Assembly: GCF_008642295.1 (NCBI RefSeq)
Contig: NZ_CP029190.1
Coordinates: forward strand, 6,183,501-6,247,500
Origin: Streptomyces venezuelae
Lineage (GTDB): Bacteria > Actinomycetota > Actinomycetes > Streptomycetales > Streptomycetaceae
Direction of reading: 5' to 3'
DNA: 64,000 bases
A model generated the notes under the pieces. The model worked only from the letters and a program-made list of their open reading frames with translations, was not told the origin of the DNA and did no database searches. Positions 1-11,585 of this stretch are shown here, in pieces (position 1 is the first letter of the stretch; every line of letters starts with the position of its first letter). The translations under genes and the position numbers were made by a program.

Positions 1-2264
1 GCGTGCTGAAGGTGGCCACCGCCGCCGACTTCACCGATGTGATGCCGCTGCCCTGCATCTGGATACCCGGCGGGGTGGAGAGCCACTTCCCGCCCCATCC
101 GTACGGGCTGCCCGGCGCCCGCCCGGTCCTGACCGGCGACACCGTCCGGCATGTGGGCGACGCCATCGCCGTGGTGGTCGCCGAGACCCCGCGCCAGGCC
201 GCCGCCGCGCTGGCCGCCATCACCGTGGACTACGAACCGCTGCCCGTGGTCACCCGGGCCGACCAGGCACTCGCCGAAGGCGCCCCGCAGCTCCACGAAG
301 CCGTCCCCGGCAACCTCAATGCGTACTGGACCTGCGGGGACAAGGAGCGCACCGACGCCGCCATTGCGGCGGCCGAGGTGACCGTCGAGCTGGACCTGGT
401 CAACCAGCGGACCATCAACAGCCCCATCGAACCGCGCGGGGCGGTCGGCGACTACCACGCGGCCACCGGGGAGTACACCCTCTACGCCTCCACCCAGGGC
501 CCCCACAACCACCGCTTCCTGCTGTCCGCCCTGGTCCTCGGGATCCCGTTCAACAAGCTCCGGGTGATCGCCCCGACCGTCGGCGGCAGCTTCGGCACCA
601 AGGGCTACCTCTACCCCGACATGGCGCTGGTCCTGCTGCTGTCCAAGGCGCTCGGCCGGCCGGTGAAGTGGGTGGACACCCGCACCGGCCTGATGAACTC
701 CACGGTCCAGGGCCGTGACCACCGCCAGCACGTCACCCTGGCCGGCACCCGCGACGGCCGGATCACCGCCGTGCGCTGCACCAGCCACGCCAACCTCGGC
801 GCCTACCCGTCCACCATCGGACCCGGTGTCGCCACCGCCCTGATGGGCCGGTCCATCAGCGGCATGTACCAGATCGACGCCGCCTTCTGCGAGGTCTACG
901 CGGCCTTCACCAACACCGTCCCGCTCGGCGCCCAGCGCGGCAGCGGCCGGGCCGAGGCCGCCTTCCTGATGGAACGGCTCGTCGACCGGTACGCCGCCGA
1001 GATCGGCATGGACCCGGCCGAGGTCCGCCGCCGCAACCTGGTGCCGGCCGAGAAGTTCCCGTACGACAACGGGCTCGGCTGGACCTACGACTCGGGCAAC
1101 TACCGGGAGAACTTCGACAAGGCGCTGGAGCTGGCCGGTTACGCCGACATGCCCGCCCGGAAGGCCGAGGCCCGCACCCGGGGCAAGCGGCTCGGCGTGG
1201 GCCTTGCCACCTATGTGGCGATCTGCGGGGTCGGCCCGTCCACCCGAATGTCCCAGGAGGGCATGCTCGGCGGCACCTGGGAGAGCGCCAACATCCGGGT
1301 CCACCCGACCGGCGAGGTCACCGTCACCGTCGGCTCGGCCTCCACCGGCCAGAGCCACGGCACCGTCTTCGCCCAGGTCGCGGCGGCCGAGCTGGGCATC
1401 GACCCGGCGAACGTCCAGGTCCTGGAGGGCGACACGCTCAAGGCGCCGTACGGACAGGGCACCTACGGCAGCCGCTCCTACAGCATGGCCGCGCCGGCCG
1501 TCGCCCTGACCGCCCGGAAGATTCGGAGCAAGCTGGTCCGGGCCGGCGCCGTGTTCCTCGGCATCCCCGAGGAGAAGGTGGTCTACGCCGGCGGCGGGGT
1601 CCACGAGGACGGCAACCCCGAGAACGCCAAGACCTTCGCCGAACTCGCCATGGCCATGTGGTACGGCTGGGGGCTGCCGCCGGAGATCGAACCGGCCCTG
1701 GACGAGACCACCCACTTCGACCCACCGGACTTCAACTACCCCTTCGGCAGCCATGTCGCGGTGGTCGAGATCGACGAACTCACCGGCGAGACCGAGGTGG
1801 TGTCCTACACCGCGGTGGACGACGCGGGCAACATCGGCAACCCGAAGATCGTGCTGGGGCAGATCGAGGGATCGATTCTGCATGGCCTGGGCCAGGCCCT
1901 GATGGAAGCCGCCGAATACGACACCGACGGCCGGCTGATCACCGCCGACCTCACCGGCTACGCCCTGCCGCGCGCCGCCGACGCGCCCTTCTTCACCCTC
2001 GGCAAGACCGTCACACCCAGCCCGCACAACCCGCTCGGCGCCAAGGGCGCCGGCGAGATCGCCACCGTGCCGCCCGCCGCGGCCGTGGTCAACGCCGTGG
2101 TGGACGCCCTCTCCGACCTGGGCGTGCAGCACATCGACATGCCGGTCACCCCGGAGAAGGTCTGGCGCGTCCTGGCCGGCCGAACCGCCGGAACCGGAGG
2201 CACCGGCGGAACCGCAGGCACCGGCGCTGCCGCCGGGACCGGAACGGAAGGGGGACCGCGGTGA
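1..2264 (+). CDS. Molybdenum hydroxylase large subunit (xanthine dehydrogenase/aldehyde oxidase type), 5'-truncated
   Basis: Molybdopterin-cytosine-dinucleotide-binding catalytic subunit of a xanthine dehydrogenase/aldehyde oxidase/CoxL-type enzyme. The frame is open to the left edge, and about 70-90 N-terminal residues expected for the family are outside the window. Visible motifs are the Moco-contacting GGSFGTKG near residue 198 of the visible part, a QRGSGRAEAAF stretch, and near the C-terminus GAKGAGE, which carries the catalytic glutamate of the family. The AYxCSFR loop of true CO dehydrogenases is absent, so an aldehyde or purine substrate is likelier than CO. The last 25 residues are a Gly/Thr/Ala-rich tail (GTGGTGGTAGTG type). 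Its stop overlaps the start of the FAD subunit, so the two are co-translated. The iron-sulfur subunit is not in view and may lie upstream. Confidence 0.93.
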   Translation, partial: VLKVATAADFTDVMPLPCIWIPGGVESHFPPHPYGLPGARPVLTGDTVRHVGDAIAVVVAETPRQAAAALAAITVDYEPLPVVTRADQALAEGAPQLHEAVPGNLNAYWTCGDKERTDAAIAAAEVTVELDLVNQRTINSPIEPRGAVGDYHAATGEYTLYASTQGPHNHRFLLSALVLGIPFNKLRVIAPTVGGSFGTKGYLYPDMALVLLLSKALGRPVKWVDTRTGLMNSTVQGRDHRQHVTLAGTRDGRITAVRCTSHANLGAYPSTIGPGVATALMGRSISGMYQIDAAFCEVYAAFTNTVPLGAQRGSGRAEAAFLMERLVDRYAAEIGMDPAEVRRRNLVPAEKFPYDNGLGWTYDSGNYRENFDKALELAGYADMPARKAEARTRGKRLGVGLATYVAICGVGPSTRMSQEGMLGGTWESANIRVHPTGEVTVTVGSASTGQSHGTVFAQVAAAELGIDPANVQVLEGDTLKAPYGQGTYGSRSYSMAAPAVALTARKIRSKLVRAGAVFLGIPEEKVVYAGGGVHEDGNPENAKTFAELAMAMWYGWGLPPEIEPALDETTHFDPPDFNYPFGSHVAVVEIDELTGETEVVSYTAVDDAGNIGNPKIVLGQIEGSILHGLGQALMEAAEYDTDGRLITADLTGYALPRAADAPFFTLGKTVTPSPHNPLGAKGAGEIATVPPAAAVVNAVVDALSDLGVQHIDMPVTPEKVWRVLAGRTAGTGGTGGTAGTGAAAGTGTEGGPR

Positions 2265-3097
2265 TCCTCACCGACTTCGACTACGCCCGGCCCGCAGGGC
2301 TGGACGAGGCACTCGTCCTGCTCGGCCGCACCCCCGGCGCCCGTGTGCTGGCCGGCGGCCAGAGCCTGCTCCCCGAGCTGCGCGGCGGCACCGCCACCGC
2401 CCGGCTGCTGGTGGACGTCCGCCGGCTCGAGGAGCTGCGCGGTATCGACGGCAGCCCGGACGGAGCACTCCGGATCGGCGCCGCCACCACCCTCGCCGAA
2501 CTCGCCGGGCACCCCCTGGTGCTCGGCTCGGCACCGGGACTGGCCGCCGCCGCCCGAGCCAACGGCGACCCGCAGGTCCGCAACCTCGGCACCGTCGGCG
2601 GCAATCTGTCCGCCGGAGGCCGCGCCACCGACCTGCCGGTGGCGGCCATCGCCGCCGACGCCCGGGTGGAACTGGCCGGGCCGCACGGCCGGCACTCGCT
2701 GCCGGCCGAGGAGTTCGCCACCGCCGGACCGCCGCGGGGCTCCCTGGTCACCGCCCTGCTGGTGCCCGCCGGCGGCCGGGCCGCCGCCTTCGAGAAGACC
2801 GCCGACCGGGCCACCCGCTACCCGCTCTGCGCGGCTGCGGTACGGATCACCCCCGACGGCCCGCGGATCGCCGTCACCGGCGCCACCGCGCGCCCGCTGC
2901 GGCTGACCGGGGTCGAAGCCCGGCTGCACGGCACCGAGTCCACCACCGAGTACACCACCGAGGCCGTGCTCGCGGCCTTCCGCGCCGAGCCCCGGGAGCT
3001 GTTCGTACCCGGCCGCGGCACCTCGGCCGAATACCTCGGCCATCTCGCGGGGGTCCTGACCGCCCGCGCACTCAAGCGGGCGCAGGCCCTGACCTGA
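2261..3097 (+). CDS. FAD-binding subunit of molybdenum hydroxylase (CoxM/XdhB type)
   Basis: Medium subunit of the molybdenum hydroxylase, about 278 residues, the normal size for CoxM/XdhB. It carries FAD between the iron-sulfur subunit and the final acceptor. The N-terminal FAD_binding_5 motif LAGGQSLLPELRGG is clear, followed by the second flavin loop NLGTVGGNLSAGGRATDLP and a C-terminal CO_deh_flav_C domain. GTG at 2261 is chosen because it gives the 4-base GTGA overlap with the upstream stop and has a purine-rich GGAAGGGGGA ribosome site just before it; the frame stays open upstream only as a shadow of the large subunit. The aspartate in ATDLP replaces the more usual AD-PA. The subunit order L-M is typical of Streptomyces loci. 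Confidence 0.93.
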   Translation: MILTDFDYARPAGLDEALVLLGRTPGARVLAGGQSLLPELRGGTATARLLVDVRRLEELRGIDGSPDGALRIGAATTLAELAGHPLVLGSAPGLAAAARANGDPQVRNLGTVGGNLSAGGRATDLPVAAIAADARVELAGPHGRHSLPAEEFATAGPPRGSLVTALLVPAGGRAAAFEKTADRATRYPLCAAAVRITPDGPRIAVTGATARPLRLTGVEARLHGTESTTEYTTEAVLAAFRAEPRELFVPGRGTSAEYLGHLAGVLTARALKRAQALT

Positions 3098-3134: not shown

Positions 3135-4463
3135 GTGGCACGACAGATCCCGAATCCGAGCACGGGGGGTACGCGGCACCAGCCGCCTCCCGGACCGCGC
3201 CCCGGACCGCGCCCCGGACCGCCGCCCGCGCCGGTGGCCGGGCCGGCGGCCGGGGCACCGGCCCGCCCCGGCGCAGCCGCCTTCTGGCTGGTCGGCACCG
3301 TCCTCGTCCTGCTGATGCTGTCCTCCTCCGTCCCCTCCGCCCTCTACGTCCTCTACCAGGACCGGTGGGACCTCTCCTCCGGCATGATCACGGTGGTCTT
3401 CGCCCTGTACGCGGTCACCGTCCTGGCCGGCCTGCTGGTCTTCGGCTCGCTCTCCGACACCCTCGGCCGCCGGCCCGTCCTCACCGCCGGACTGCTCCTG
3501 GCCATCGTCTCCATGGGCCTGTTCGCCGCCGCCCAGGGGCCGGTCTGGCTGCTCGCCGCCCGGGCCGTCCAGGGGCTCGCCGTGGGCCTGGCCACCGGGG
3601 CGATGGGCGCCGCCCTGCTGGAACTCGCCCCCCGGTCCCGGCCCGCCCTGGGAGCCCAGGTCAACAGCGCCGGTCCCACCGTCGGCATCGGGCTCGGCGG
3701 CATCGGCGCCGGCCTGCTCGTCCAGTACGCCCCGGCCCCGACCTCCCTCAGCTACCTGATCCTGATCGGGGCGTTCGCCCTCTGCCTGGCCGGGGTGCTG
3801 CGGATGCCCGAGAGCGCTCCCGGCGCGGTGCGCTCCGGCGGGTTCGCCTTGGCCCCGCACCGGATCCATGTGCCCGCCCCGGCCCGCCGCCGCTTCGCCG
3901 TCCTGATCCTCACCATCATCGCGGTCTGGTCGGTCGGCGGCTTCTACCTCTCCCTCGGCCCGCATCTGGCCCTCTCCCTGCTGGAGAGCACCAACTACCT
4001 GGCCGGCGGGGCCACCGTGGCCCTGCTCGCCGGCGCGGCCACCGCCGCCCAGCTGCTCCTCGGCCGTACCGAGGCGCTGCGGACGGCCGTGCTGGGCCTG
4101 CTCGGCCTGCTCGCCGGCCTGGGGCTGGTGCTGCTTTCCCTCGGGCTCGGCTCCGCCGCCGTGTTTCTGGTGGCCACCGCGGTCCTCGGCAGTGGCTGGG
4201 GCGCCGCCTTCCTCGGCTCCTTCCGAGCCCTGAGCGCCCTCGCCGACCCCGTCCACCGCGGGGAACTCACCGCCGCCGTCTATGTCTTCGCCTATCTGGC
4301 CATGAGCGTGCCCGCGGTGCTCGCCGGCCTGTTCACCAACCTCCACGGGCTGCACCCCACCTCGGTCGGCTTCATGGCCGCGGTCGCGGGGGTCTGCGCG
4401 CTCGCGCTGCTGGCCACGCTGCGGCTGGGCGCCCGGACCCGGGCCGGGAGGGGGACGGCATGA
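3135..4463 (+). CDS. MFS transporter
   Basis: Major facilitator superfamily transporter of about 442 residues with a proline-rich cytoplasmic N-terminus (residues 10-40) followed by about 12 hydrophobic segments. The signature loop between TM2 and TM3 reads GSLSDTLGRRPVL. The substrate cannot be told; the family covers drug and metabolite export. GTG at 3135 is preferred because a GGGGGAG site lies 8-10 bases upstream; an in-frame GTG at 3126 is possible but sits right on that site. The gene follows the oxidase subunits after a short gap and its stop overlaps the start of the histidine kinase by 4 bases, so transporter and kinase are translated together. That coupling suggests the kinase monitors or controls something related to the transported compound (inference). 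Confidence 0.88.
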   Translation: MARQIPNPSTGGTRHQPPPGPRPGPRPGPPPAPVAGPAAGAPARPGAAAFWLVGTVLVLLMLSSSVPSALYVLYQDRWDLSSGMITVVFALYAVTVLAGLLVFGSLSDTLGRRPVLTAGLLLAIVSMGLFAAAQGPVWLLAARAVQGLAVGLATGAMGAALLELAPRSRPALGAQVNSAGPTVGIGLGGIGAGLLVQYAPAPTSLSYLILIGAFALCLAGVLRMPESAPGAVRSGGFALAPHRIHVPAPARRRFAVLILTIIAVWSVGGFYLSLGPHLALSLLESTNYLAGGATVALLAGAATAAQLLLGRTEALRTAVLGLLGLLAGLGLVLLSLGLGSAAVFLVATAVLGSGWGAAFLGSFRALSALADPVHRGELTAAVYVFAYLAMSVPAVLAGLFTNLHGLHPTSVGFMAAVAGVCALALLATLRLGARTRAGRGTA

Positions 4464-5926
4464 CCGAGGAGGAACTGCGGGCCGCCCTCCACGGGCTGGA
4501 GATCTTCGCCCGGCTCACCGAGGAGCAGCTGGACTGGCTGGTGTCGGTGTCCGAGCCCCGGGTGCTCCCCGACGGCGCGGTGCTCTTCCGCGACGGGGAG
4601 GAGGCCTCGGAGTTCCATGTGCTGCTCTCCGGCGGCCTGGTGGTCACCAAGGTGGTGGACGGCCGGGAGGAGGTGCTGACCCGGCACTCCACCGATCAGG
4701 AGTCCGCCGAGGAGCACGACGGCAAACCCGCCGCCGCCCACCGGTTCACCGGGGAGCTGCCGCTCCTGACCGAGGGCGGCTATGTGGCCACCGCCGCCGC
4801 CAGCGGACCGGAGACCACCGTGGTCGCCTACTCGAAACCGGCCTTCTTCGAGATGCTGACCCGCTGCCACGGGGTGGCCGCGGTGCTGATCCCGGTGCTG
4901 GCCTGGCGGATCAAGTCCTCCGAGGTGCAGGCCCGCAAACGGGCCACCGTGGAGGCCCTGGGCACGCTGGCCGCCGGACTCGCACACGAACTGAACAACC
5001 CGGCGGCGGCCGTGGCCCGGGCCGCCCAGGAACTCGGGCCGGCCCTGGACCGGCTCACCCGTACCGCGCAGGCCTGGGGCGCGGCGGCGGGCACCGCCGA
5101 ACGCCCCGTACTCGACCGGCTGGCCGAGGAGCTGGACAAGGTGCCACCGCCGGCCACCAGTGATCCGCTGGCGCAGGCCGACGCCGAGGAGGAGATCGCC
5201 GACTGGGCCGAGGCGGAGGGCGCCGGGCAGCCCGGACTGCTCGGCGCCGGGATCGCCGACCTCGGCCTGGAGGCGGACTGGCTGCGGGACCGGCTGGCCG
5301 GGGTGGGCGACACCGCCCGGCCCGCCGCCCTGGACCATCTCGCCGCCCTGCTGGAGACCCGGGCGCTGGCCGCCGAGCTCCGCGCGGCCGGCCCGCGCAT
5401 CTCCCAACTGGTCGCCGCCACCCGGGATTACGCCAATCTCGACCGGGCTCCCGAGCAGCGGTTCGCGGTCACGGAGGGGCTGGAGAACACCCTGGTGGTG
5501 CTGCGCGCCAAGCTCGCCGGGATCAGCATCGTCCGGGCCTACGAGCCGGATCTGCCGGAGATGACCGGGTATCCGAGCGAACTGAACCAGGTGTGGACCA
5601 ACCTGGTCGACAACGCGGCCGAAGCCATGGAAGGGGCCGGGGTGCTCACGCTGCGTGTGCGCGCGGAGGGCGACTGCATGGTCGTCGAGATCGCCGACAC
5701 CGGCCGCGGCATCCCCGAGGCATCCCTTCCGCGCATCTTCGAGCCGTTCTACACCACCAAGGACGTGGGGAAGGGGACCGGTCTGGGGCTGCACCTGAGC
5801 TACCGGATCGTGACCCAGCGCCACCACGGCTCGCTCACGGCGCGTTCCCGGCCGGGCGAGACCCGCATGATCGTCCGTCTGCCCATCGTTCCGACCGAGA
5901 AACGGAGCCGACATGGCCGCTTATGA
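4460..5926 (+). CDS. Soluble sensor histidine kinase with N-terminal cyclic-nucleotide-binding-like domain
   Basis: Protein of 488 residues without membrane segments. Residues about 10-135 form a Crp-type cyclic-nucleotide-binding fold (VLFRDGEEASEFHVLLSG, then the cassette FTGELPLLTEGG). The phosphate-binding cassette normally carries an Arg before Thr/Ala; here the sequence is GGYVATAAA with Val at that place, so cNMP binding is doubtful. The kinase core has H-box AAGLAHELNNP (His176), N-box LVDNAAEAM, G1 DTGRGIPEASLP and G2 GKGTGLGL, all intact. Residues 190-330 are an acidic helical insert. It overlaps the MFS gene by 4 bases and the NTF2-like gene by 14 bases, so four functions appear coupled. 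No response regulator is adjacent. Confidence 0.9.
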   Translation: MTEEELRAALHGLEIFARLTEEQLDWLVSVSEPRVLPDGAVLFRDGEEASEFHVLLSGGLVVTKVVDGREEVLTRHSTDQESAEEHDGKPAAAHRFTGELPLLTEGGYVATAAASGPETTVVAYSKPAFFEMLTRCHGVAAVLIPVLAWRIKSSEVQARKRATVEALGTLAAGLAHELNNPAAAVARAAQELGPALDRLTRTAQAWGAAAGTAERPVLDRLAEELDKVPPPATSDPLAQADAEEEIADWAEAEGAGQPGLLGAGIADLGLEADWLRDRLAGVGDTARPAALDHLAALLETRALAAELRAAGPRISQLVAATRDYANLDRAPEQRFAVTEGLENTLVVLRAKLAGISIVRAYEPDLPEMTGYPSELNQVWTNLVDNAAEAMEGAGVLTLRVRAEGDCMVVEIADTGRGIPEASLPRIFEPFYTTKDVGKGTGLGLHLSYRIVTQRHHGSLTARSRPGETRMIVRLPIVPTEKRSRHGRL

Positions 5927-6254
5927 CATCGCCAAACTGCACCCGGTGTTCGTCCGCCAGATGGACGCCCTCGCCGCGCTCGACATCGATGCGGTGATGA
6001 AGAACTACACCGAGGACGCCGTACTCCTGCGATTCGAAGGAGTATCGGTCGGAATCGACGAGGTGAGGGAGACGTTCACCGGCTATCTCACCCTGAAACC
6101 CACCCTCGTGGAACTCCAGGAGTACGTCGAGACCGAGGACACGATCTTCTATCGGGCGATCATGAACCTCAATGGCGCGCCGGAGCACGCGTTCGGGACA
6201 CTGGTGGTCCGCGATGGCCGGATCTGGCGCCAGACGGCCGGCTTCGGCAGCTGA
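5913..6254 (+). CDS. NTF2/SnoaL-like small protein
   Basis: Protein of 113 residues with an NTF2-like (SnoaL) fold signature: N-terminal helix, then MKNYTEDAVLLRFEG, a beta-rich middle, and the C-terminal strand TLVVRDGRIWRQT. Such proteins are small ligand-binding or isomerase-like domains, and no catalytic residues can be assigned. ATG 5913 lies inside the end of the kinase gene (14-base overlap), which implies translational coupling, so it may be an accessory ligand binder for the kinase. It is followed by a strong 14-bp hairpin that ends the transcript before the TMEM175-type gene. Confidence 0.8.
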   Translation: MAAYDIAKLHPVFVRQMDALAALDIDAVMKNYTEDAVLLRFEGVSVGIDEVRETFTGYLTLKPTLVELQEYVETEDTIFYRAIMNLNGAPEHAFGTLVVRDGRIWRQTAGFGS

Positions 6255-6350: not shown

Positions 6351-6995
6351 ATGGAACAGGAAACCAACCGGGTCGAGGCGTTCAGCGATGGCGTATTCGC
6401 CATTGTCATCACCATTCTCGTCCTGGAAATCAAGGTCCCGGAGGAGCACGGTTCCGACCTCTGGCACGGATTATGGGCACAGTGGCCGCACTATGCCGCA
6501 TACGTGGTGAGTTTCCTCGTCGTCGGCGTCATGTGGGTCAACCACCACACCATCTTCGGCCACCTGCGGCGGGTCGACCGGCCCCTACTGTTCCTCAACC
6601 TCCTTGTTCTGATGGTGGTTTCGGTGATCCCGTGGACCACCTCCGTCCTCGCCGAACATCTCAAGGACGACGAGGCGGCCAAGGTCGCCGCAATTCTGTA
6701 CAGCGCGTGGACAGTCGTCTACGCCCTTGCCTTCAGTGCCTTCTGGTGGTACGTCACCCGGGTCGGCCATCTCTTCCACGAGCACGTCGACAAAGACGGC
6801 GCACGGGCCACACGGATGCGCTTCGGCCTCGGAGCCATCGCCTATCCCATCACCGTCGTCCTGTCCTTCATTTCGGCGCCACTCGCCCTCGTCGCACACT
6901 TCTTCATCGCCATCTACTATGCGGCGAACCAGATCCCCATCCCTCTCGTGGTAGAAGACGAGCGGCTCGAATCTGCCAGCGACCTCAGGAAGTAG
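6351..6995 (+). CDS. TMEM175-family (DUF1211) membrane protein, putative potassium channel
   Basis: Protein of 214 residues with about six membrane segments. The N-terminal FSDGVFAIVITILVLEI is the diagnostic FSDxVFAI filter helix of prokaryotic TMEM175 potassium channels, which assemble as tetramers of a single six-helix repeat; the length fits. The next segments (YVVSFLVVGVMWVNHHTIF, FLNLLVLMVVSVIPWT) match the family pattern. ATG 6351 follows AAGGGGAGG at a good distance. Codon use is slightly less GC-biased than in neighbours (several TTC/ATT and GAA codons). The preceding hairpin gives it its own transcript, although it sits beside the cNMP-type kinase operon. Confidence 0.85.
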   Translation: MEQETNRVEAFSDGVFAIVITILVLEIKVPEEHGSDLWHGLWAQWPHYAAYVVSFLVVGVMWVNHHTIFGHLRRVDRPLLFLNLLVLMVVSVIPWTTSVLAEHLKDDEAAKVAAILYSAWTVVYALAFSAFWWYVTRVGHLFHEHVDKDGARATRMRFGLGAIAYPITVVLSFISAPLALVAHFFIAIYYAANQIPIPLVVEDERLESASDLRK

Positions 6996-7069
6996 CCGCC
7001 GGGGCCTACGGCCGTTCTCGCCGGTCAAGTAGGGTATTGGATCTAGCTGGTCGCGGGGGAGGCGCAGTG

Positions 7070-8416
7070 ATGGCTCGCGTAGTCCTGCCGGAGGAATCCG
7101 CCAAGGAAGTCTCCGAATTGATCGACGTATTGATATCTCTGTTCTTCGAATCCTTACCCCGGCGGGACCAGCGCAACTGGGCCCGCGTTTACCTGAACGG
7201 TCTCGTCGGAACGACCGGCAAGAAAACCATTCGCAACATCGCCGGCACCGGGGCCAGTTCGGTGGAACAGAGTCTCCAGCAGTTCATCAGCAAATCCCCC
7301 TGGGACTGGACCCCGGTCCGCCGTTCCCTCGCCCAGCACCTCGAACGCACCGCACAGCGTCCCCTGGCCTGGGTGGTCCAGCCCATGGTCATCGAAAAGG
7401 CCGGGGACCGCTCGGTCGGCGTCGGCCGCCAGTTCGTCCCCCAGCTCGGCCGCACCGCCAACTGCCAGCAGGCCAGCGGCATCTGGCTGGCCTCCAGTGA
7501 CGCCAGCTTCCCGGTCGAATGGACCCTCACCCTCCCCGGGCCCTGGACCAGCGAACTGCTCCGCCGCCGCCGGGCCGGCATCCCCGACACCGCCCGTTCC
7601 CTCACCCCCGCCCAGGACGCCGTACACGCCGTCCAGCGGATGGCCGCAGGCTGGCAACTCCAGCGCCGGCCGGTGGTGATGGAGGTCGGCAACGCCGAAC
7701 TCCCGCAGTGCATCGAAGCCCTCTCCCTCCAGGACATCCCGTTCGTCCTGAAGGTGGACGGCTCCGTGCCGGTCTCCTTCGGCGGCGCCGGACGCCACAA
7801 ACCCGGCCCTCACACCGCACCCGCCCGCGAACTCATCGATTCGTTGCGCTCCCAGCGCCGGGTGGTCGAATGGACCCGGCACGGCCGGCCGGAGGGCGCG
7901 GTCACCCTGCTCACCTCCGCCGCCATCCTCGCCGCCGCCGCCGAGGACCGGCCGGCAGCCCTGCCGCCCACCCCCCTGCTGCTGGTCGGGGCCTGGACCG
8001 AAGCCGCCCTGCTGCCCTCCGAGTTCTGGATCACCAACATCGGCGACCGCCCGCTGGCCCAGCTGTTCCTGCTGGCCAAGCTCACCGACCGGGTCGCCCT
8101 GGACTACGCCGAGGTGTGCGAACCCGTGGGCATCCGCGACTTCGAGGGCCGCTCCTTCCGCGGCTGGCACCACCACGTCACCCTCGCCAGCGTCGCGCAC
8201 GCCGCCCTGCTGCTCGGCGCCCGCGCCCACCGGACCGACAGCGCCGCCACCACAGGCCGCGCCGCCACCACCGGCACCACGGGCCGTACCGGCAGCGTCG
8301 CCGGACTGCCGCCCGGCACCAGAGCGCCGTACCCCGGCCCCTCCCGGCCCGCCCCCGTGCTGCCGCCCCGGCCCTTCATCCCCGGCCAGCTCGCCCGGCG
8401 CGAGTACATCCGCTGA
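7070..8416 (+). CDS. IS701-type transposase-derived protein lacking the DDE triad (probably domesticated)
   Basis: Protein of 448 residues clearly related to IS701-type DDE transposases: the N-terminal region SLPRRDQRNWARVYLNGLV, the core SVGVGRQFVPQLGRTANCQ, and the C-terminal RSFRGWHHHVTLASVAHAA match family blocks in order. The catalytic positions are changed. Where active members have DDT/DET before the SVGV block this protein has QPMVIEKAGDR; the second Asp block reads VVMEVGN; and the expected IE before the GLD-YEVR block reads LD. A Pro/Thr-rich tail (residues 390-440) is extra. No terminal inverted repeats or target duplication are visible and codon use matches the chromosome. It ends 7 bases before xdhC. 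ATG 7070 with GGGGGAGG upstream is preferred over GTG 7067. The role is unknown; a DNA-binding regulator is one possibility. Confidence 0.8.
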   Translation: MARVVLPEESAKEVSELIDVLISLFFESLPRRDQRNWARVYLNGLVGTTGKKTIRNIAGTGASSVEQSLQQFISKSPWDWTPVRRSLAQHLERTAQRPLAWVVQPMVIEKAGDRSVGVGRQFVPQLGRTANCQQASGIWLASSDASFPVEWTLTLPGPWTSELLRRRRAGIPDTARSLTPAQDAVHAVQRMAAGWQLQRRPVVMEVGNAELPQCIEALSLQDIPFVLKVDGSVPVSFGGAGRHKPGPHTAPARELIDSLRSQRRVVEWTRHGRPEGAVTLLTSAAILAAAAEDRPAALPPTPLLLVGAWTEAALLPSEFWITNIGDRPLAQLFLLAKLTDRVALDYAEVCEPVGIRDFEGRSFRGWHHHVTLASVAHAALLLGARAHRTDSAATTGRAATTGTTGRTGSVAGLPPGTRAPYPGPSRPAPVLPPRPFIPGQLARREYIR

Positions 8417-8423
8417 CGCCCCG

Positions 8424-9614
8424 ATGCTGGACATCGCGGAAGAACTGCGCGCATGGTGTGCCGCCCGGCGGGAGTTCGCACTGGCCACGGTCGTCTCGGT
8501 GAGCGGCAGCGCCCCGCGCGGCCCCGGCGCCTCCCTGGCCGTGGACGACCGGGGCACCGCCCTGGGCAGCATCTCCGGCGGCTGCGTGGAATCGGCCGTG
8601 CACGAGCTGTGCCTGGCCGCCCTCGCCTCCGGGGAAACCGGCGTCCACCGCTTCGGCTACAGCGACGACGACGCCTTCGCCATCGGCCTGACCTGTGGCG
8701 GGGTCCTCGACGTCCTGGTCACCCCGGTCCGCAGCCTGGATCCGGTGCGGCCCGTCCTCGGCGCGGTCCTGGACACCACCGCGCTCGGCGGCCGGGCCGC
8801 CCTCGCCCGGGTGGTCAGCGGCCCCCCGGCACAGCACGGCCGGGCCCTCGCGGTCCGGCCCGACGGCTCGTACGAGGGCGGGCTCGGCGGCGGTGCGGCC
8901 CTCGACCGGGCCGCCGCCGGCCGGGTCCGGGACCTCCTGCTGGCCGGCCGCACCGGAACCGCCGACCTCGGCACGGCCGGCGGGCTGTGCGGGGACCCCC
9001 TGACCCTGCTCGTCGAATCGGTGGCCGAACCGCCCCGCCTGCTGGTCTACGGGGCCATCGACTTCGCCTCCGCACTGGCCCGGATCGGTGCCTTCCTCGG
9101 CCACCGGGTCACCGTCTGCGACGCCCGGCCGGTGTTCGCCACCCCGGCCCGCTTCCCCGGCGCCGACGAGGTGGTCGTCGACTGGCCGCACCGGCACCTG
9201 GCCGCGGAATGGGAGGCCGGCCGGCTGGATGCCCGTACCGCCGTCTGCGTGCTCACCCACGACGCCAAGTTCGACGTACCGCTGCTGGCCCTGGCCCTGC
9301 GGCTGCCGCTGGGCTACGTCGGGGCCATGGGCTCCCGCCGCACCCACGCCGACCGGACCGCCCGGCTGCGTGCCGAAGGCCTCACCCGTGCGGAGCTCGC
9401 CCGGCTCCGCTCGCCCATCGGCCTCGACCTCGGGGCCGGCACCCCCGAGGAGACCGCGCTGGCCATCGCGGCCGAGCTCACCGCGGTCCGGCACGCCGCC
9501 CCCGCAACCCCGCTGACCGTCGGCCGGAACCCCATCCACCGCCGTCAGCCCGACCGGCCCCTCACATGGTCGACGACCGCCCGGAACCCGGCCGAAGGTG
9601 AGAAGTCCATGTAG
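8424..9614 (+). CDS. xdhC: XdhC/CoxF family molybdenum hydroxylase maturation protein
   Basis: Protein of 396 residues in the XdhC/CoxI family, which binds and sulfurates the molybdenum cofactor before insertion into xanthine dehydrogenase-like enzymes. The N-terminal XdhC/CoxI domain shows SGSAPRGPGASL and the SISGGCVES motif; the C-terminal Rossmann-type XdhC_C domain shows RIGAFLGHRVTVCDARP, VCVLTHDAKFDVP and GAMGSRRTHADR. It starts 7 bases after the transposase-derived gene, so the two are probably one transcript. It is separated by 5 kb from the hydroxylase subunits at the left edge but is the natural maturation partner for them. The last 70 bases overlap the convergent cupin gene. Confidence 0.92.
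   Translation: MLDIAEELRAWCAARREFALATVVSVSGSAPRGPGASLAVDDRGTALGSISGGCVESAVHELCLAALASGETGVHRFGYSDDDAFAIGLTCGGVLDVLVTPVRSLDPVRPVLGAVLDTTALGGRAALARVVSGPPAQHGRALAVRPDGSYEGGLGGGAALDRAAAGRVRDLLLAGRTGTADLGTAGGLCGDPLTLLVESVAEPPRLLVYGAIDFASALARIGAFLGHRVTVCDARPVFATPARFPGADEVVVDWPHRHLAAEWEAGRLDARTAVCVLTHDAKFDVPLLALALRLPLGYVGAMGSRRTHADRTARLRAEGLTRAELARLRSPIGLDLGAGTPEETALAIAAELTAVRHAAPATPLTVGRNPIHRRQPDRPLTWSTTARNPAEGEKSM

Positions 9615-10139: not shown

Positions 10140-11585
<1,446 letters not shown>

Follow-up and report, generated by a model that had tools for sequence, protein, structure and literature searches.

What does a transposase gene do for its host once no catalysis can be expected of its product? 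The question is raised by a gene of Streptomyces venezuelae which lies directly upstream of xdhC in a stretch of 64,000 nucleotides (contig NZ_CP029190.1, positions 6,183,501 to 6,247,500; the whole stretch is called the window below) and which encodes a transposase-like protein (TPL) of the IS701 type. An earlier note, made from the letters of this DNA, had taken TPL for a domesticated transposase with all three catalytic positions lost, perhaps acting as a DNA-binding regulator of xdhC. We find that the gene is indeed kept by the host, that a regulatory role is plausible, and that TPL does not need xdhC.

Family, fold and catalytic positions of TPL

By sequence, TPL belongs to the IS701 transposases: it matches the Pfam model DDE_5 (E-value 6.7e-42) and scores 295.8 bits against NF033540, the NCBIfam model of these enzymes (cut-off 150). 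NF033540 is an equivalog model named "IS701 family transposase", and since the inactive TPL scores so far above its cut-off, automatic annotation labels TPL and its listed relatives (the best 120 of the 291 proteins given by the homologue search, which we aligned) as transposases. TPL also has the length of these transposases, and 22 of the 58 columns conserved in intact IS701 proteins are retained at 80% or more. A sequence search of the PDB with TPL gave no match up to an E-value of 1; the predicted structure matches the Tn5-like DDE/RNase H fold over the chain, at about 10% identity to Tn5 transposase. The N-terminal domain is helical and basic; in Tn5 transposase, the N-terminal part binds the transposon ends. 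The C-terminal tail (residues 396-448; 8255-8413) is mostly modelled with low confidence, and its ratio of nonsynonymous to synonymous substitution rates (dN/dS) is 0.54.

Two methods, MAFFT and a profile-profile comparison with intact IS701 transposases (probability 100), agree on the catalytic columns. The DDT block has become QPM at residues 104-106, the second catalytic Asp is Glu205, which keeps the acidic character, and the catalytic Glu is Ala343, while the Arg and the Lys of what we take to be a YREK-type motif are Thr339 and Cys350. The D-D-E triad of an IS701 transposase is thus absent from TPL (Q104/P105, E205, A343). The earlier note, which had itself proposed this alignment as a check, was right that the catalytic letters are changed; its "LD", given as the site of the catalytic Glu, is one column off, and its "all three lost" holds for the letters of TPL, but position 205 is still acidic. 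Of the 50 proteins P0001-P0050, 49 have Pro in column 105, 46 have Glu and 4 have Asp in column 205, and 44 have Ser or Ala in column 343.

For a wider comparison we used context loci, which are best matches and not a random sample: 119 were taken (L041-L050, L080-L145, L152-L154 and L227-L266, the other orthologue loci, L007-L040 and L146-L151, being excluded) and 112 kept, after seven which have no called TPL gene of 250 amino acids were dropped (L084, L094, L106, L123, L232, L253, L259). Fourteen of the kept rows are intact and 98 inactive, the latter including L113, L122 and L125, which start with DE- and have lost the catalytic Glu. Of the inactive rows, 10 keep the first Asp of the DDT block, 1 keeps the second and none keeps the Lys of the motif; 80 have Asp and 10 have Glu in column 205, and 19 retain the Glu of column 343. 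These last two columns mean that "all three lost" fits TPL but not every member of the family. The genome of the window also holds a relative with intact catalytic letters (L083).

In an IQ-TREE tree built by a quick search from 66 selected rows, 50 inactive rows fall on one side of a branch with an SH-aLRT support of 100 and 16 intact IS701 rows on the other; a larger FastTree tree gives the same split with a support of 0.76. The inactive clade includes rows from Streptosporangiaceae, Thermomonosporaceae and Micromonosporaceae. The simplest reading of these trees is a single ancestral loss of catalysis: an old IS701-type clade would have lost cutting once, before it spread through the actinomycetes.

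Place, copy number and selection

Among 61 Streptomyces genomes, 7 contain a single orthologue of TPL (at least 84% identical) and the other 54 contain none. We fetched 44 loci, of which 36 are Streptomyces orthologues; the IMP dehydrogenase-family gene, called guaB1 here, follows in 33 of these 36, and the contigs of the other three end before it. Neither variable location nor several copies, the marks of mobility, were found, and no pair of terminal inverted repeats like those of an insertion sequence (IS), with arms of at least 12 bases, was found around the gene (6900-8600), as the earlier note had said. In the sole repeat pair straddling TPL (I3), the right arm lies some 100 bases within xdhC. 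The open frame is intact in 35 of the 36 loci, the contig of the last one (L033) stopping near the end of the gene. The median dN/dS of TPL is 0.20 (778 of 780 pairs from 40 sequences, which are not independent, as pairs share sequences; middle half 0.17-0.26); it falls to 0.11 for residues 1-95, and it is 0.24 for xdhC.

These results bear on what the gene could be instead. That TPL is a decaying IS remnant carried along in the operon, as its transposase annotation and its fast C-terminal tail might suggest, is the least probable of the explanations we considered: the frame is whole, many columns are conserved, and with a dN/dS of 0.20 we set aside a pseudogene. Hardly more probable is that TPL is still active as a nuclease or transposase by way of different residues near Glu205. 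Acidic letters in column 205 (90 of 98 inactive rows) and the 19 remaining Glu in column 343 would suit such an enzyme, but nearly all inactive rows have lost the DDT block and the equivalents of Arg339 and Lys350, and TPL is a single copy in all 7 orthologue genomes, at a fixed locus and without repeats of 12 or more bases; an active IS was set aside on catalytic residues, copy number and repeats. A third explanation makes TPL an inhibitor of transposition, dominant-negative against active IS701 elements in the manner of the Tn5 inhibitor protein. That inhibitor lacks the N-terminal end of the transposase, whereas TPL keeps its N-terminal domain. TPL is only 28-36% identical to intact IS701 transposases, which makes it unlikely that they share ends or form mixed dimers, and an inhibitor would leave unexplained both the fixed place and the PucR and AfsA neighbours of the relatives (see below). 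We consider it very improbable and set it aside as too diverged.

TPL thus differs from IS701 transposases in its catalytic and YREK-type residues, in the terminal repeats, of which none were found, and in its fixed single-copy locus, tightly set among host genes. Purifying selection together with lost mobility, as seen here, is a mark of a domesticated transposase. Because of the fixed locus, the single copy, the purifying selection, the kept predicted fold and the single loss of catalysis, we concluded that TPL is a domesticated, host-kept gene, and this is well supported. The domestication claimed in the earlier note therefore stands; of the checks it had named, dN/dS lies well below 1 among orthologues, and the orthologues show one fixed locus, not a sporadic multi-copy distribution with terminal repeats.

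The coordinates of TPL and its neighbours are collected below. The reading frame, length and position given earlier for TPL are correct, as is the gap of 7 bases between its end (8416) and xdhC (8424); a gene caller based on coding scores calls TPL with the identical start, which lies 74 bases past the TMEM175 gene, and GGGGGAGG is the ribosome-site-like stretch of its reading frame. A transporter gene of the major facilitator superfamily is also among the genes upstream.

Features of the TPL locus (positions in the window)
Feature	Position	Strand	Located by
Transposase-like protein (TPL), IS701-type, catalytically changed, 448 amino acids	7070..8416	+	
Gln104-Pro105 codons, replacing the first catalytic Asp (DDT block)	7379..7384	+	MAFFT, profile-profile
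Glu205 codon, replacing the second catalytic Asp; Asp in most inactive relatives	7682..7684	+	
Ala343 codon, replacing the catalytic Glu	8096..8098	+	MAFFT, profile-profile
Cys350 codon, replacing the Lys of the presumed YREK-type motif	8117..8119	+	
TMEM175-TPL spacer, conserved beyond fourfold sites; putative regulatory region	6996..7069	+	
Sigma-B-type promoter-like site GTTCTC-N12-GGGTAT, ATG 33 bases downstream	7014..7037	+	
TMEM175-family membrane protein	6351..6995	+	
xdhC-family maturation factor, next gene 3' of TPL, same strand	8424..9614	+	
SnoaL-like protein	5913..6254	+	
Cyclic nucleotide (cNMP)-binding histidine-kinase-like protein	4460..5926	+	
Molybdopterin-binding subunit of molybdenum hydroxylase, open at the window edge	3..2264	+	
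FAD-binding subunit of molybdenum hydroxylase	2261..3097	+	
IMP dehydrogenase-family gene (guaB1), right-hand neighbour	10143..11585	+	

The pair with xdhC and the upstream spacer

If TPL were strictly a regulator of xdhC, the two genes should stay together. The earlier note had asked whether they do so across Streptomyces, and the answer is mixed. An xdhC gene lies next to TPL in 27 of the 36 orthologue loci (called as a gene in 25 of them, and found by tblastn at the contig end in L022 and L024), is absent in 8, and cannot be judged in L033, at a contig end. Where xdhC is called, the stop of TPL and the start of xdhC overlap in 24 of 25 loci. A search of the 8 genomes without an adjacent xdhC, for which assembly completeness is not stated, gave only copies of 63-65% identity elsewhere and none closer. 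In 4 of these 8 (L036, L037, L041, L042) the fetched locus lacks the kinase, SnoaL and TMEM175 genes as well, and TPL still stands beside guaB1. In our 61 genomes, matches to xdhC of at least 79% occur only in the 7 which bear TPL. The pair is also found in another genus (L232 and L234), at a TPL identity of 44-50%, with the TMEM175, kinase and GlgB genes on the opposite strand and, in L232, a second, weaker TMEM175 match before TPL. A locus of Sphaerisporangium melleum (L043, 3-12518) holds xdh, kinase, SnoaL, TMEM175, TPL and xdhC genes together, with no guaB1 within the fetched 21 kb; identity is 85% for its molybdenum subunit, which lies partly at the edge, and 62% for its TPL. We concluded that the pair is real and old but separable, and that TPL does not need xdhC. 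The pair recurs, even in another genus, but the 8 loci without xdhC led us to reject, in its strict form, the regulator of xdhC once proposed, and this is the least supported part of the earlier interpretation.

The same facts bear on the main rival of a regulatory role, namely that the inactive RNase H-like fold serves not to bind specific DNA sequences but as a protein adaptor or assembly factor for its operon partner, XdhC here and PucR in sister clades. The pair recurs across genera, the PucR proteins co-diverge with the relatives of TPL and the active-site columns are free to vary, all of which an adaptor would explain. Yet the strongest constraint lies in the N-terminal part, which binds DNA in Tn5, and TPL is retained in the 8 loci without xdhC. 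We consider the adaptor rather unlikely.

The spacer between TMEM175 and TPL is more conserved than fourfold sites: its mean pairwise identity is 85%, versus 71% for the fourfold sites of TPL and 54% for two other spacers (34 sequences, of 71-75 bases except for one outlier of 22 among them). The spacer contains the motif GTTCTC-N12-GGGTAT, which fits the sigma-B-type consensus as quoted in an excerpt of PMC8346170. The window has 2 such sites when 0.93 are expected by chance, so that only position and conservation argue for a promoter here. An inverted pair CCTAC/GTAGG (7005-7009, 7029-7033), possibly due to chance, overlaps the promoter-like -10 element.

Regulators beside the inactive relatives

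The commonest neighbour in the 112 context loci is a regulator with GAF, GGDEF-like and PucR helix-turn-helix (HTH) domains, mostly of 575-700 amino acids (neighbour classes are BLAST clusters, with Pfam run on 7 PucR members, one AfsA and one TetR). It stands at +1 and convergent in 33 of the 98 inactive loci and in none of the 14 intact ones, with gaps of -52 to +229 bases; in these counts the Fisher p of 0.009 is only indicative, because related loci are not independent. Two of the dropped loci, L094 and L106, also carry a PucR gene. The pairs are tail to tail, some overlapping, including three of the window's own genome (L080 8833-11906, L081 6094-9218, L082 6189-9177) and 30 other loci. 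These partners form a distinct subfamily of GAF-PucR regulators, and distances between TPL relatives and between their PucR partners are correlated (Mantel r 0.83; 0.62 for distant pairs). In the window's genome, 3 of the 17 HTH_30 matches above cut-off pair with TPL relatives (L002-L004), and among 13 other PucR stretches only L275 is closely related to the TPL-paired regulators. For TPL itself a PucR partner was rejected: none of the 22 genomic matches to PF13556 lies in the window, the nearest being about 350 and 690 kb away.

AfsA-type and TetR-type genes both occur within six genes in 24 loci, 2 of which also have PucR; the set comprises L108-L112, L116, L120, L133, L135, L137, L238-L242, L244, L246, L247, L257, L266 and four others. 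In these gamma-butyrolactone islands the inactive relative is often divergent from the TetR gene. Any of the three kinds is present in 58 of the 112 loci and in none of the 14 intact ones. The nearer relatives of TPL share an island with GlgB, GlgX, maltokinase, nucleoside diphosphate (NDP)-sugar, thiamine pyrophosphate (TPP)-enzyme and DJ-1 genes. This glucan/maltose island (L044-L050, L086, L113, L136, L227, L228, L281, L282; not seen for the short L047) varies in its gene set, which draws on GlgB, GlgX, maltokinase, NDP-sugar synthase, TPP enzyme, DJ-1 and a MinD-like ATPase. In the wider family, most neighbours are regulators of other kinds or belong to a glucan/stress gene island.

A regulatory role for TPL is plausible because its inactive relatives repeatedly adjoin transcription regulators, and a DNA-binding regulator would be the most economical reading because the N-terminal constraint, the conserved spacer and the repeated regulator pairing come together. 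TPL, which keeps the predicted Tn5-like fold and the basic, helical N-terminal domain, would bind specific DNA without cutting it, the probable target being the conserved stretch of about 72 bases just upstream of its own gene. Under stress it would tune the transcription of TPL and xdhC, possibly from the sigma-B-type promoter, and perhaps also that of the adjacent block of molybdenum hydroxylase and kinase genes. The proteins of sister clades would act with a GAF-PucR activator or within gamma-butyrolactone islands. To this proposal, which is drawn from sequence comparison, we give an even chance.

Several observations weigh against it. The net charge of the N-terminal part is +6, versus medians of +5 in both intact IS701 and inactive rows; the two medians being equal and TPL hardly higher, the charge is no evidence of binding. 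The 20-base core of the spacer, with up to three mismatches, occurs once in the genome, at its own site, hence no wider regulon was found. The conservation of the spacer may reflect a promoter and a ribosome site alone, and three loci without the xdh block (L036, L037, L041) retain TPL but carry an altered promoter-like part. Pairwise dN/dS of TPL among the 8 strains that lack xdhC is 0.19-0.54, looser than the overall middle half. Finally, the co-divergence with PucR may be mere shared descent of linked genes, and the TPL of the window has no PucR partner, the link with regulators coming from sister clades.

More generally, actinomycetes may hold a large and ancient class of dead IS701 transposases turned into dedicated transcription regulators or co-regulators, each clade with its fixed partner (GAF-PucR activators, gamma-butyrolactone receptor/synthase islands, or the kinase-TMEM175-xdhC stress block), hidden by the public annotation "IS701 family transposase"; we are equally inclined to believe and to doubt this. 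If it is true, a family dismissed as mobile-element noise in the annotation of Streptomyces would in fact regulate stress genes and antibiotic clusters, with PucR activators and signalling genes as its neighbours. Bacteria would then offer a clear example of a single ancient domestication of a DDE transposase with a later radiation, and each partner pair would be a direct regulatory hypothesis, silent biosynthetic clusters included.

The TldR proteins, whose active site is dead, are unrelated to TPL and differ from it by their RNA-guided mechanism. They are nevertheless alike in concept, a transposon enzyme made into a regulator, being TnpB-derived RNA-guided transcription factors according to PMC13418256. 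The SrmR-type GAF-PucR activators of antibiotic clusters (PMC8388888, in excerpt) have the domain type of the partners in sister clades and correspond to the partner, which TPL of the window lacks, not to TPL. Among the open-access articles retrieved (a part of them where the result lists were long), none dealt with inactive IS701 proteins or with their PucR or AfsA pairing; in the excerpted text of PMC8987985 the word "domesticated" is used, and IS701 and DDE occur 0 times.

Genes like TPL also occur in adjacent pairs (L087 7872-10411; L088 7986-10547, where the second is called only as a piece of 138 amino acids). A relative is found in 317 plasmid records, always below 60% identity; among the 40 matches listed, 38 are annotated as a transposase or IS701 family transposase, one is featureless and one unannotated. 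The copy on the C-1027 plasmid has no annotated PucR or AfsA gene within 7 kb. Two other plasmid copies which we opened lie in a run of NDP-sugar, short-chain dehydrogenase/reductase (SDR), TPL and kinase genes, the kinase being a maltokinase or a phosphotransferase.
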